A DNA stretch of 12,285 nucleotides, from positions 1 through 12,285 of the forward strand of contig DASVDK010000076.1 in NCBI GenBank assembly GCA_036381125.1. Reading direction: 5' to 3'. The position numbers and the translations under genes were made by a program. This DNA is from DASVDK01 sp036381125 [NCBI: Thermodesulfobacteriota bacterium] (GTDB taxonomy: Bacteria > DASVDK01). Below are positions 195-9,244 of this stretch, one piece after another; position 1 is the first letter of the stretch; the number at the start of each line of letters is the position of its first letter. The notes below the pieces were generated by a model. It saw only the letters and a program-made list of their open reading frames with translations, ran no database searches and was not told the origin of the DNA.

Positions 195-210
195 TGGCAC
201 GCCGCTTGCT
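195..210 (+). promoter_or_regulatory. Sigma-54 (RpoN) -24/-12 promoter of the solo PilW-like pilin
   Basis: The 16-mer TGGCACGCCGCTTGCT matches the consensus TGGCACG-N4-TTGCW at every fixed position. The GG (196-197) and GC (208-209) doublets are 12 bp apart as required. Counting from the -12 GC, transcription should begin near 221, only about 6 nt before the ATG at 227. The upstream gene looks like a sigma-54 activator, and two more elements with the same geometry occur in this window, so a chance match is unlikely. Confidence 0.75.
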
Positions 211-226
211 CGTGGTCCGCCGCGCG

Positions 227-1006
227 ATGCCGGGACGACTCCGACCACGGGAAGGTGCGCTCCGGGGGACGGCGGGGGTCACCCTCGTCGAGTTGACCGT
301 CGCGCTCGCCGTGGCGGTCGTCGTGACGCTCGGCATCTACCTCCTCTACGCGGGCGCCACCCGGTCCTTCGTGGCCCGCGACCCGGTCCTCGAGGCCCAG
401 CGGGTCGCCCGCCTCGCCATCGAGTCGCTGACGCAGGACCTGATCCGGGCCGGGTACAGGGTCCCGTCGCCCGCCCCGGCCATCGCCCACGCATCGGCCG
501 ACTCCGTCACCGTCGAGTACTTCAACGACCAGGCCGACCGGTTCGAGCGGGTGCGGTACGCCCTCGACCAGGAGGGGCGGCTCGTCCGCGAGGTGCTGCG
601 CAGGACCGGGGACGACTGGACGGCGCCGCCCGAGTCGGTGCTGACGGAGGTCGTCGCCGAGCAGGTCCGCTTCGCCGACGCCGACGGCGACGGCGTGCGG
701 GAGCCGGGCGAGGCCCCCGCGCTCGAGTTCGCCTTCTTCACGGAGGCGCCGGCGCCGGCCTCGTCGGGGCCGGACGGGTGGCTCGACGTGACCACCCCGC
801 TCGACGCCGCCTCCGGCGACGCGGCGGCCGTCGGGCGCCTGCGCCGGATCCGCCGCGTCGCGATCACCCTGACCGTGCGGCCGACCCAGCCCGACCCCGT
901 GACCGGGGCCTACCTCCACCGGACGCTCCGCGCCGAGGTCGTCCTGCGCCACGCCGGCCGGGGAGCCGACGCGAAGGCCTCCGCGCACCACCCACCGGCG
1001 CCCTGA
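227..1006 (+). CDS. Type IV prepilin, PilW/GspJ-like minor pilin (monocistronic)
   Basis: The 259-residue protein has a class III (type IV prepilin) signal. Residues 1-17 are a basic leader ending in Gly17. Mature Val18 is followed by TLVEL with Glu at +5 (Glu22) and a hydrophobic stretch to about residue 42. PilD would cleave after Gly17 and methylate the new N terminus. The body resembles the PilW/GspJ class, with the R-R-V-A-I-T-L-T-V-R pattern near the C terminus typical of those proteins. Residues 151-162 (DADGDGVREPGE) have the exact spacing of a 12-residue EF-hand loop and may bind calcium. The in-frame GTG at 194 would lie inside the sigma-54 promoter, so I use ATG 227. No in-frame start exists between that ATG and the cleavage site, and no Shine-Dalgarno precedes it. 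It is separated from the main operon by about 250 bp and its own promoter. It is a second PilW-like gene beside the one at 2248. Confidence 0.85.
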   Translation: MPGRLRPREGALRGTAGVTLVELTVALAVAVVVTLGIYLLYAGATRSFVARDPVLEAQRVARLAIESLTQDLIRAGYRVPSPAPAIAHASADSVTVEYFNDQADRFERVRYALDQEGRLVREVLRRTGDDWTAPPESVLTEVVAEQVRFADADGDGVREPGEAPALEFAFFTEAPAPASSGPDGWLDVTTPLDAASGDAAAVGRLRRIRRVAITLTVRPTQPDPVTGAYLHRTLRAEVVLRHAGRGADAKASAHHPPAP

Positions 1007-1021
1007 GGCGCGGGGCCCCGT

Positions 1022-1058
1022 CGGTTCGGGCGACCGGCCGCGCAGGCGGCCGCAACCG
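1022..1058 (+). terminator. GC-rich hairpin downstream of the solo pilin gene
   Basis: CGGCCGC (1035-1041) and GCGGCCG (1046-1052) form a perfect 7-bp stem with a 4-nt loop. Flanking CGGTT (1022-1026) and AACCG (1054-1058) could extend it imperfectly. It lies about 30 nt after the stop codon at 1006. There is no U-tract, so termination would be weak, Rho-assisted or unusual; it could instead protect the 3' end. Confidence 0.35.
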
Positions 1059-1095
1059 GGCCGCACGGGGCGATTCGGGCCCGCCGCTACCTCGC

Positions 1096-1225
1096 AAAAA
1101 GTCGCAGGCGGCCCAACCTGCTTGCGCGCCGCGGCCGTCCGCGCCCGGCGCGATGGCCCGGCAATTGTCGTCCAAGTTCCTGCCATAGCGAAGATATTTG
1201 ACGTTTCGCACAGGTCAAGTGACCC
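1096..1225 (+). promoter_or_regulatory. Upstream region of the minor-pilin operon, possible activator/bending sites
   Basis: This stretch precedes the second -24/-12 promoter. It opens with an A-tract motif AAAAAGTCGC (1096-1105), nearly the same as AAAAAGTAGC at 89-98 upstream of the first promoter. From about 1163 to 1220 it is clearly poorer in G+C than the rest of the window (for example GAAGATATTTGACG near 1190). Sigma-54 promoters need an activator bound roughly 100 bp upstream and often a DNA bend between, so the position is apt. Binding of PilR or IHF is inferred from position only. Confidence 0.3.
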
Positions 1226-1241
1226 TGGCATGGCGCTTGCT
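1226..1241 (+). promoter_or_regulatory. Sigma-54 (RpoN) -24/-12 promoter of the minor-pilin/pilY1 operon
   Basis: TGGCATGGCGCTTGCT has the invariant GG (1227-1228) and GC (1239-1240) 12 bp apart, with TTGCT identical to the first promoter. The predicted start is near 1252, 2 nt before the only usable ATG of the first gene (1254). The following bases CG are also the same as at the first promoter. Confidence 0.75.
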
Positions 1242-1253
1242 CGACGCCCGGGC

Positions 1254-1772
1254 ATGCACACGCGTCGCTCGGCCACCGCGGCCTCGGGCTTCACGCTGAT
1301 CGAGGTCATCGTCGTCATGACGGTCATGGTGATCTTCATGCTGATCGCCCTGCCGAACTTCCGGGCCTGGGTGGTCCAGCAGCAGATCCAGTCCGCCGTC
1401 GCACGGGTCGAGGCCGACCTGCGGCTGGCACGGATGACCGCGATCAACGAGAACGGGCCGGCGGCGATCCGGTTCCAGGCGGCGCCCGGCACCGGGTACG
1501 AGGTCTTCATCGACGACGGCGCCGGCGGGGGGATCGCGCGCAACCTCCAGCGGGATGGGGGCGAGACGCTCGTCGTGTCGCGCACGCTCGACAACGGGAT
1601 CGTCTTCTCGGCGGTCGACTTCAACGGCGGGGTCGCCATGTCGTTCAACGGCCGCGGGCTCAAGGCGCTGCCGGCCACCGGGCCGGCGCAGGTCGTTCTC
1701 GAGAACCACGTCGGGACCCGGTACCGGATCCGGGTGAGCCCCGCGGGGAGCATCGATGTCTCGCGTCTGTAG
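1254..1772 (+). CDS. fimT: FimT/GspH-like minor prepilin
   Basis: The 172-residue prepilin has a leader of residues 1-12 ending in Gly12, then mature FTLIEV with Glu17 at +5, and a hydrophobic helix to about residue 35. The C-terminal R-I-R-V-S-P-x-G-x-I pattern (about residues 158-167) and the size are typical of the GspH/FimT family, whose T4P members are minor pilins that help start the fibre and in some species bind DNA during uptake. In-frame ATGs at 1122 and 1230 lie upstream of or within the sigma-54 promoter. ATG 1254 is the only start codon between promoter and cleavage site, and it lacks a Shine-Dalgarno. It is the first gene of the operon; its last 17 bases overlap the start of pilV, implying translational coupling. 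FimT versus FimU or GspH cannot be separated by eye; the T4P setting favours fimT/fimU. Confidence 0.85.
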   Translation: MHTRRSATAASGFTLIEVIVVMTVMVIFMLIALPNFRAWVVQQQIQSAVARVEADLRLARMTAINENGPAAIRFQAAPGTGYEVFIDDGAGGGIARNLQRDGGETLVVSRTLDNGIVFSAVDFNGGVAMSFNGRGLKALPATGPAQVVLENHVGTRYRIRVSPAGSIDVSRL

Positions 1773-2238
1773 ACCCGGCGCGCGCCGCGCGGCCGCCCCC
1801 CGGCGCGCCGGCTTCACCCTCCTCGAGGTGCTCGTCGCGGCGGTCATCCTCGCCGTCGGCCTCCTGGCGCTCGGCGCCGCCGAGATCACGGCGGCCGGCG
1901 CGACCGGTCGGTCGCGCGCGGTGTCGATCGCCACGGCATACGGCGAGGAGATGATCGAGCGGATCCGCCGCAACCGCGACGAGGTCGCCGCCTACGACGG
2001 CTTCGACACGCAGGACCCGACGACCCGGCCGACCGGGGCCGGCATACTGCAGACCGACTACGACCAGTGGAAGTCCCGCCTCGAGCAGGGCGGCCAGGCG
2101 GGCCTCGGCGGGGCCCGCGGGACGGTGACCGTCCTGACCGACTCCCCGATCCCCGGGGCGAACGCCGTGCGCGTGGCCGTCTCGTGGTCGGACGGGACCG
2201 ACCGCGAGGTGGTCGTCATGTCGGTGCTCTTCAACTAG
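1756..2238 (+). CDS. pilV: Minor prepilin PilV
   Basis: The 160-residue prepilin has a basic leader (residues 1-19, ending RRAG) cleaved before Phe20, then the FTLLEVLVA signature with Glu at +5 and a helix rich in Ala, Leu and Val (VILAVGLLALGAAE). This N terminus, followed by an EEMIERIRRNR helix near residues 70-80, is characteristic of PilV (T4P analogue of GspI), part of the minor-pilin priming complex. The domain ends with a short beta-rich part including VRVAVSWSDG, as usual in the family. It overlaps the end of fimT by 17 nt and is followed 9 nt later by pilW, so it is clearly within the operon. Confidence 0.9.
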   Translation: MSRVCRPGARRAAAPRRAGFTLLEVLVAAVILAVGLLALGAAEITAAGATGRSRAVSIATAYGEEMIERIRRNRDEVAAYDGFDTQDPTTRPTGAGILQTDYDQWKSRLEQGGQAGLGGARGTVTVLTDSPIPGANAVRVAVSWSDGTDREVVVMSVLFN

Positions 2239-2247
2239 GAGACGGCG

Positions 2248-3165
2248 GTGGCACGGCAGGGGAGACACGAGAAGGGCCTCACGCTCGTCGAGCTCATGAT
2301 GGCGATCGCGCTGTCGCTCGTCATCGGGGCGGTGGGATACGTCTTCTACGCGACCACCGTCACCTTCGCGGCGACGCAGGGGCGCGCCGCCGCCATGCAG
2401 GCCGACATCCGCGTGGCGGCCGACATGCTGTCGCGCGACATCCGGAACGCCGGCTTCGGCATCCTCGACCCGTTCGCCCGCGAGGTGATCGGCGCGACCC
2501 CTCCCGTCGCGCCGGCGAACAACGTCGACTCCGGCGTCGACGGCATAGGCCAGACCGACCGGATCACGCTGCGAGGCGGGTACGTCATCGCCGGGGCGCT
2601 CATCGCCGACGCCACGCAGGGCGCGACGACCATCAGGCTCACGCCGCAGGCCGGGATCGACCCGCAGACCCTGAACGGCCAGACGATCACGATCGAGGGC
2701 TTCTACACCGGAACGGCCGGGGCCTGGACGTCCGCGACGAACACGCTCGCCATCTCCCCCGGCCTCACCCGGGACTTCAACGCGGGCGACGCCGTGGTGA
2801 TCGTCCGGACGGTCTCCTGGTCGGTGGCGGTGCCGACCGGCGAGACGGAGCCGGCCCTCTTCCGCGACGACGGCGGCGGCGCGGGGCCCCAGATCGTCGC
2901 GCGCGGCGTCGAGGACCTCCAGTTCGCCTACCTGCTCGCGAACGGGACCGAGGCGAACGGCCCGGTGCTGCCGGCGCTGCCGGCCTGGCCCACGGTGCGG
3001 GCGGTGCGGTTCACGATCGTGGCGCGGCGACCCGAGGCGCGAGCCGACCAGCGGGCCGTGTCGATCCGGCCGGCCGTCGAGGACCGGGGGGCCGGCGCGG
3101 CCGCCGACGCGTACCGGCGGCGGATCATCACGAAGGTCGTGGAGGTACGCAACCTTGGCGGGTAA
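2248..3165 (+). CDS. pilW: Minor prepilin PilW
   Basis: The 305-residue prepilin starts at GTG 2248 behind AGGAGA (2237-2242). The leader is 10 residues (ends EKG); the mature protein begins at Leu11 with LTLVEL, Glu15 at +5, and a helix to about residue 33. Then comes a helix containing DIRVAADMLSRDIRNAGFG, a PilW hallmark, a beta-rich middle, and a C-terminal half with VEDLQFAYLL and VRAVRFTIVARR, the standard pattern of PilW proteins. PilW (analogous to GspJ) sits in the tip/priming complex with PilV, PilX and PilY1. It is larger than the PilW-like protein at 227-1006 and, unlike it, is embedded in the operon, so this is the more likely orthologue of classical PilW. It overlaps pilX by 11 nt. 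Confidence 0.92.
   Translation: MARQGRHEKGLTLVELMMAIALSLVIGAVGYVFYATTVTFAATQGRAAAMQADIRVAADMLSRDIRNAGFGILDPFAREVIGATPPVAPANNVDSGVDGIGQTDRITLRGGYVIAGALIADATQGATTIRLTPQAGIDPQTLNGQTITIEGFYTGTAGAWTSATNTLAISPGLTRDFNAGDAVVIVRTVSWSVAVPTGETEPALFRDDGGGAGPQIVARGVEDLQFAYLLANGTEANGPVLPALPAWPTVRAVRFTIVARRPEARADQRAVSIRPAVEDRGAGAAADAYRRRIITKVVEVRNLGG
3141..3146 (+). promoter_or_regulatory. Ribosome binding site supporting a TTG start for pilX
   Basis: GGAGGT lies 8 nt before TTG 3155, inside the end of pilW. This strong Shine-Dalgarno, with correct spacing, is what makes the rare TTG codon the preferred start. The protein from this point has a proper basic leader before the hydrophobic segment. Confidence 0.65.
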
Positions 3166-3745
3166 GCGGCAGACGCGGCGCCCGGCGCGCCGCCGGGGCG
3201 TCGCCCTGATCACGATCCTCCTGATGCTCTTCCTCGCCGCCGCCATCGGCCTCATGGTGCTGACGGTCAGCGAGACGGAGAGCCAGCTCGCGAGCACGAA
3301 CCGGCGGACGACGCAGACGCTGCACGGCGCGGGGGGCGGCGCGGACACGGCGATCCCGGTCATCCGGTCGGTCGTCGACGCCAACGCGATCCCGAGCTTC
3401 CCGGCGTCGGTCGAGGTCGACACGAGCAACACGACCGGCAACGCCGCCATCGACGACTTCGTCGAGGAACTGACAGGCGGCCCCGGCGGGGACGACACGG
3501 TCCAGTCGAAGCCGGACATCACGCTGGCGGGGGTCTTCCCGTCCCAGACGGTCCGGGTGGACGTGGACTACGCCGGCCAGGTCAGCCTGCCGGGCTCCGA
3601 GGTGGAGGAGTTCGCCGCCGGGTACCACAAGAAGACGGGCGGCGCGGGCTGCGCGTCCGGCAGCCTCTACTACGTCGACTCGCTGTCGCAAGGCGTCCTG
3701 CGGACCCAGTCGCGGGTCGGGCAGGCCTACTTCATGTGCCCGTGA
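3155..3745 (+). CDS. pilX: PilX-like minor pilin (PilX/GspK type N terminus)
   Basis: The 196-residue protein starts at TTG. A basic leader of about 15 residues ends RRRG, followed by VALITILLMLFLAAAIGLMV, a hydrophobic N-terminal helix of the PilX_N type. The +5 residue is Thr, not Glu, as usual for PilX and GspK, which are thought to cap the fibre tip. Just after the helix, PilX proteins normally have a motif like AxxAAEAGxxxA. Here the matching stretch is THLGAGGG-like (L56-H-G-A-G-G-G-A-D-T-A66), with Gly in place of the usual Glu, although the surrounding spacing and the AIPVIRS continuation are kept. The C-terminal domain is short and polar, with two cysteines in the last 45 residues, possibly a disulfide. 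It overlaps pilW and precedes the small exported protein by 15 nt. The family call is firm at the N terminus; the rest is not recognisable by eye. Confidence 0.8.
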   Translation: MAGKRQTRRPARRRGVALITILLMLFLAAAIGLMVLTVSETESQLASTNRRTTQTLHGAGGGADTAIPVIRSVVDANAIPSFPASVEVDTSNTTGNAAIDDFVEELTGGPGGDDTVQSKPDITLAGVFPSQTVRVDVDYAGQVSLPGSEVEEFAAGYHKKTGGAGCASGSLYYVDSLSQGVLRTQSRVGQAYFMCP

Positions 3746-9168: not shown

Positions 9169-9228
9169 GCATACGGAGGGCGAGGCCAAGTCGCCGTCCC
9201 CGCGGGAAAAACGGGCCAATCGGCCGCT

Positions 9229-9244
9229 TGGCTCGCTCCTTGCT
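9229..9244 (+). promoter_or_regulatory. Sigma-54 (RpoN) -24/-12 promoter of the HTH-pilMNOP operon
   Basis: TGGCTCGCTCCTTGCT keeps GG (9230-9231) and GC (9242-9243) 12 bp apart and the same TTGCTCG end as the other two promoters. One base of the -24 box differs from TGGCAC (T for A). The predicted start near 9255 gives a leader of about 115 nt, in contrast with the first two promoters. Confidence 0.65.

Follow-up and report, generated by a model that had tools for sequence, protein, structure and literature searches.

The window analysed here, i.e. the whole stretch of 12,285 bases, carries a type IV pilus region in which a prepilin gene comes first and pilM lies far downstream (Table 1). Both gene 1 and fimT encode the prepilin signature and a hydrophobic helix and lie inside the pilus cluster, as type IV minor pilin genes do. 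Neither gene 1 nor the pilX-like gene at 3155 matches any Pfam family at 1e-3. The closest proteins found for the window FimT, at 44% identity, come from Ca. Manganitrophus (G020) and from genome G051; nothing further was found at 1e-20 among 395 genomes of their phylum, and nothing at 1e-12 among three genomes of the phylum of G001. The window PilM reaches a best identity of 54%, to Deltaproteobacteria and others, among the matches listed.

Table 1. Genes and predicted promoter features in the window (SD, Shine-Dalgarno duplex energy)
Feature	Position	Strand	Remarks
Sigma-54 -24/-12 element of gene 1, TGGCACGCCGCTTGCT	195..210	+	Exact consensus; -12 C at 209
Predicted 6-nt leader of gene 1	221..226	+	Arithmetic from the usual +1 spacing
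Prepilin gene 1	227..1006	+	N-terminal signature, cleavage GTAG/VTLVE; PilW/GspJ-like by position
Sigma-54 -24/-12 element of fimT, TGGCATGGCGCTTGCT	1226..1241	+	Exact; -12 C at 1240; contains in-frame ATG1230
Predicted 2-nt leader of fimT	1252..1253	+	Arithmetic from the usual +1 spacing
fimT/gspH-type minor pilin gene	1254..1772	+	Pfam GspH (3.2e-11) and N_methyl; cleavage AASG/FTLIE
pilV-like gene	from 1756	+	Pfam N_methyl; SD -7.3 kcal/mol
pilW	from 2248	+	Pfam PilW; SD -7.3 kcal/mol
pilX-like gene	from 3155 (pilV-like/pilW/pilX-like block 1756..3745)	+	Named by position; SD -10.6 kcal/mol
Small gene	3761		
pilY1	4118		Pfam PilY1
Third sigma-54-like site, TGGCTCGCTCCTTGCT	9229..9244	+	One mismatch; 5' of the HTH gene; ordinary leader of about 115 nt
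Small HTH gene	9370		SD -9.5 kcal/mol
pilM	9598		Pfam PilM; preceded by the HTH gene

Sigma-54 promoters are characterized by GG at -24 and GC at -12 with ten bases between them, in a context close to TGGCAC-N5-TTGCW, and transcription usually starts 12 nt past the -12 C. The initial annotation had placed near-perfect elements of this type shortly before gene 1 and fimT. Both are in fact exact and lie on the plus strand, and they are the only two matches to TGGCAYN5TTGCW in the window, each directly 5' of a prepilin start; dinucleotide shuffles of the window contain 0.01 exact sites on average, and none of the 200 shuffles contained two. The proposed distances from the end of the element to the start codon, 16 nt for ATG227 (211-226) and 12 nt for ATG1254 (1242-1253), were recomputed and are correct, and with +1 set 12 nt past each -12 C the predicted leaders would indeed measure about 6 and 2 nt. 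The sole sigma-70-like match in the first 1400 bases of the window lies on the minus strand. An A-run is found 20-130 nt upstream of each of the three sigma-54 sites of the window (GAAAAAAGTAGCG at 86-105, GCAAAAAGTCGC at 1090-1110 and GGAAAAACGGG at 9205-9215), and two of the three resemble weak minus-strand terminators.

The claim that these two starts lack a Shine-Dalgarno (SD) sequence also holds: the duplex energies are -2.2 kcal/mol for ATG227 and -2.5 kcal/mol for ATG1254, against -4.9 to -11.5 kcal/mol at ten other starts in the window (nine genes, with pilY1 counted with two alternative starts). The window organism uses SD sites, and is without them just at gene 1 and fimT. It had further been claimed that no other in-frame ATG, GTG or TTG precedes the prepilin cleavage sites. 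This is true of the stretches between the two ATGs and the cleavage sites, but in-frame starts do exist upstream, namely GTG194, TTG206 and GTG212 for gene 1 and TTG1122 and ATG1230 for fimT. Three of these, GTG194, TTG206 and ATG1230, share bases with the promoter elements, and the SD sequence is missing as well at GTG194 (-2.2 kcal/mol), GTG212 (-1.5) and ATG1230 (-2.7). Two longer reading frames were considered and rejected: the ORF at 166-1188 is in a different frame from gene 1 and does not extend it, and the 1122-1772 extension of fimT is without a coding-like GC3 bias, with GC3 of 0.64 in 1122-1253 against 0.96 within fimT. If the sigma-54 promoters are used, the RNA starts past every one of the upstream alternatives; judged on the window alone, ATG1230 or GTG194 may nonetheless be read from another transcript.

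Among the 18 genomes of the Ca. Manganitrophus order, eight possess a fimT ortholog at 1e-15, and in all eight a sigma-54 element within one mismatch precedes the gene (TGGTATGGGAGTTGCA is common to four of them). In these orthologs, however, the ATG lies 27, 28, 29, 32, 36, 43, 44 or 46 nt past the -12 C and is served by an SD sequence (-6.4 to -9.2 kcal/mol). The predicted promoter of the window fimT is thus common to the nearest orthologs in position and differs in spacing; either the interval became shorter and the SD sequence disappeared in the lineage of the window, or the reverse happened in the other lineages. Gene 1 has matches in eight of the 18 genomes, the best at 2.4e-6, and these are short N-terminal matches too weak to judge the promoter. 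The suggested conservation of the promoter-to-ATG spacing therefore fails at the eight nearest fimT orthologs, but it is found at the level of a wider class of genes.

This class emerges from 83 motif-bearing prepilin ORFs, comprising 81 from relatives (mostly from the class of Ca. Manganitrophus, with a few from other draws) and the two of the window. They were taken from 96 loci of relatives and the window, and since these loci were picked by similarity to the window FimT, the sample is biased to FimT-like genes; ORFs with the motif but without an in-frame ATG were left out of the count. The gap from the -12 C to the ATG falls into two heaps, 13-19 nt in 51 ORFs and 24-56 nt in the remaining 32, and is exactly 16 nt in 34 of the 51 short-gap ORFs. 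The two heaps differ in SD sequences of -5 kcal/mol or better, which are found in 24/32 of the long-gap ORFs, against 0.39 in shuffles, and in 14/51 of the short-gap ones, against 0.21, i.e. with no clear excess. When the window was excluded and the motif had to lie no more than 150 nt from the cleavage site, a stricter count on these 96 loci found it in 73 of 155 prepilin ORFs and with a short gap in 41, versus 0.60 and 0.000, respectively, in shuffles. Many of the loci are closely related: at identity cut-offs of 60%, 50% and 40% the 51 near loci collapse into 20, 13 and four groups, respectively; two readings each yield 51 near loci, with membership that is not quite identical. In the clusters that were read fully, the motif stands 5' of fimT and further prepilin genes follow. 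The predicted near-leaderless layout, which had been expected to be unusual, is therefore not unique to the window, as it recurs in relatives; it is not described in the literature searched.

A competing explanation is that translation begins at GTG194 or GTG212 and at ATG1230, on an mRNA transcribed from a different promoter, so that the motif lies in or at the start of the coding sequence. Besides the in-frame starts of the window, 26 of the 51 near loci have at least one in-frame start 5' of the motif, and the gap-16 motif itself often carries an in-frame ATG. In a group of 23 gap-16 loci the interval between motif and named start changes preferentially at third codon positions (in independent pairs 9/55 versus 3/55 and 1/55; over all pairs 378, 159 and 69 of 1125), as if it were translated from the in-motif ATG, whereas a group of ten loci exhibits no such excess in the interval (3/20, 2/20 and 2/20). 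Several gap-16 loci contain an AGGAGG-like sequence in the interval (-11.6 kcal/mol), and AGGAGG occurs in the interval of several loci in the group of ten, where the predicted RNA would include it only in part. Some of these species may also start, or also be transcribed, further upstream.

On the other hand, gaps of 16, 17, 18 and 19 nt place the motif in all three reading registers, and in two pairs of loci (L127/L138 and L193/L197) whose proteins are at least 60% identical the distance from motif to ATG is off by one base. An in-frame stop lies between the motif and the ATG in L124 and L177; in L177 there is, in addition, a TTG 6 nt upstream of the ATG. In L131 and L171 the named ATG is the sole possible start past the last stop. 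The gaps in all registers and these four loci, in which no start upstream of the motif is possible, indicate that the motif acts as DNA and not as coding sequence. Two further loci, L088 and L106, among the 131 loci and the window that were read, have the motif but no in-frame start at all. Over the 60 nt that precede the motif, stops are as frequent in the frame of the gene as in the others (62/975, 43/969 and 65/961), while the stretch from the ATG to the cleavage site has none in frame (0/906, versus 18/855 and 37/855 in the other frames), a zero that is partly built in because an open ATG was required for a locus to count. The motif is near-invariant, and the opposite pattern named in the initial annotation, i.e. 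a conserved upstream coding extension combined with unconserved elements, is not seen, given also the frequency of upstream stops and the low GC3 before fimT. Together with the missing SD sequences and the lack of a plus-strand sigma-70-like match in the first 1400 bases, these findings make translation from the upstream starts unlikely.

The search for motif sites in six genomes also led to a second family. In L277 an in-frame stop lies between the motif and the ATG of an exported TPR protein, and the genes in L291 and L299 resemble it. The protein is encoded in 51 of the 78 genomes of the family of G098 at 1e-10, and loci were read in the best 30 of these 51 matching genomes (L308-L337). All 30 contain the sigma-54 motif within one mismatch and a start codon 12-15 nt past the -12 C (15 nt in 16 loci, 13 nt in 11, 12 nt in two and 14 nt in one), which is GTG in 29 loci and ATG in one. 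An in-frame stop occurs inside or after the motif in 16 loci, and in 21 the named start is the first in-frame start codon after the last stop. A stretch resembling a signal peptide, as judged by eye, follows the named start directly; since it begins there, later starts, some of which have an SD sequence near 109 nt, would lose the signal. Codons 2-30 contain no stops in frame (0/870, versus 31/870 and 9/870 in the other frames). In 14 of the 30 loci the first base of the start codon is the sole purine from 9 nt past the -12 C to the start, so that these mRNAs would begin exactly at that codon, nearly always GUG. Provided that the motif is a promoter, a near-leaderless reading of the TPR family is hard to avoid from the sequences; the TPR loci are the clearest near-leaderless case, in a family independent of the prepilins.

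Short spacing is not a general habit of sigma-54 sites in these organisms, as the offsets of ATGs past the motif are flat in the six genomes (136 matches, 113 sites). Sites were read individually in three genomes (41/41 in G098, 39/67 in G020 and 30/41 in G052), and 75 of the sites read are followed by an ORF that does not lie in a long gene. At 65 of these 75 sites a start led by an SD sequence follows at 22-250 nt (23/28 in G098, 24/27 in G020 and 18/20 in G052), by a rule that is lenient, as the fimT of G098 was counted as led though its SD start, at 88 nt, falls beyond the cleavage site. A start at 11-21 nt and no SD-led start within the first 150 nt were found in the TPR genes L347 and L431, in L374 (TTG) and in L343 (gap 21). 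At 37 further sites an ATG occurs at 11-20 nt; 12 of them open an ORF of at least 60 aa, and few are convincing. RpoN is encoded in all 12 genomes of relatives that were tested. We also considered, and rejected, the idea that pilM operons share a sigma-54 site, as just three of the 47 PilM loci examined (of 80) have one within 700 nt, and in these three it sits nearer to pilM than does the 9229-9244 site of the window.

The motif, its spacing, the missing SD sequences, the recurrence in relatives, the loci without an upstream start and the presence of RpoN in 12/12 relatives tested are best explained by sigma-54-driven, activator-dependent expression of gene 1 and fimT from leaderless or very short-leadered mRNAs without an SD sequence, and we regard this as likely. 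An enhancer-binding protein, probably PilR-like, would activate the RpoN polymerase, the transcript would begin at the AUG or within a few nt 5' of it, and ribosomes would start on the terminal or near-terminal codon without a Shine-Dalgarno interaction, while ordinary SD sites would serve the translation of the downstream pilV, pilW and pilX from the shared mRNA. For the window organism we infer promoter activity, the exact +1, the activator and the translation route from this combination of features, and with them leaderless transcription of the pilin genes. A possible benefit, at which we can only guess, would be a tight on/off switch that leaves read-through RNA little translated.

Leadered translation without an SD sequence exists in many bacteria, and the named starts could be right while the mRNAs are longer, as products of read-through or of a distant promoter, with the sigma-54 site in a minor role. 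This scenario is also improbable in our opinion, in view of the co-occurrence of motif and short gap far above the level of shuffles and of the SD sequences regained in the longer-gap class of the same genes. Finally, a chance likeness to sigma-54 sites, conceivable for a short consensus in a GC-rich window, is ruled out for practical purposes by the shuffles of the window and of the relatives' loci and by the retention of the element at 8/8 nearest fimT orthologs.

Sigma-54 promoters of pilin genes are documented, as far as the excerpts of these reports go, for pilA of P. aeruginosa with PilR (PMC6058289) and for pilE of commensal Neisseria with Npa (PMC6528607). The likeness lies in an activator-requiring -24/-12 promoter 5' of a type IV pilin gene; however, pilA and pilE encode major pilins, whereas in the minor-pilin genes of the window 13-17 nt separate the -12 element from the ATG and an SD sequence is missing. 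Leaderless transcripts are reported, again in excerpts, for S. meliloti (171 leaderless transcription start sites, all beginning with AUG; PMC3616915), B. japonicum (320 start sites within 0-10 nt, 192 of them exact, with an extended -10 motif, TGnTA; PMC4842269) and L. interrogans (about 440 leaders under 10 nt; PMC5243855). In these organisms leaderless transcripts and sigma-54 promoters coexist, but the excerpted accounts describe no sigma-54-specific leaderless class. In Deinococcus-Thermus the promoter likewise abuts the ORF and yields leaderless mRNA, as is predicted here, but, according to the portion of the report consulted, the adjoining element is the -10 region (PMC12340547) and not the -12 element of an activator-dependent sigma-54 promoter.

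Our literature search, whose coverage of subscription journals is thin, found no sigma-54-driven leaderless pilin or TPR mRNAs. Sigma-54 pilin promoters and leaderless mRNAs are already known separately, and what would be new, within the literature searched, is a conserved sigma-54 class that abuts the start codon. On balance we lean towards the view that there is such a class, with the -12 element 12-19 nt from the start and leaderless or near-leaderless mRNAs, and that it spans minor-pilin operons and a TPR family of Nitrospira-like bacteria together with the lineage of the window. If this is true, activator-gated leaderless expression would place the SD-independent translation of surface appendages under an on/off switch, and the start annotation of these genes would need correction. 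The same kind of pilin operon would also offer natural sets, with 12-19 nt and no SD sequence versus 24-56 nt and an SD sequence, that would allow the transition between leadered and leaderless expression to be examined directly.

Several minor observations were made in the course of this work. The first base of the motif is C in 44 of the 51 short-gap prepilin loci and T in four, two of which are those of the window, while in the 30 TPR loci it is G in 27 and A in three; the rarity of T in the short-gap class may be a matter of lineage or of function. A VKOR-family gene of G098 (L388) has the sigma-54 motif, an in-frame stop at the end of the motif and a start 18 nt past the -12 C, with a GTG 15 nt before the named start, and is possibly a third short-gap case. 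The sequence GGCATCCACATTGCT occurs in 12 copies in the G052 genome, followed in L339 by a stretch resembling a tRNA T-arm, and these copies are a repeat rather than promoters.
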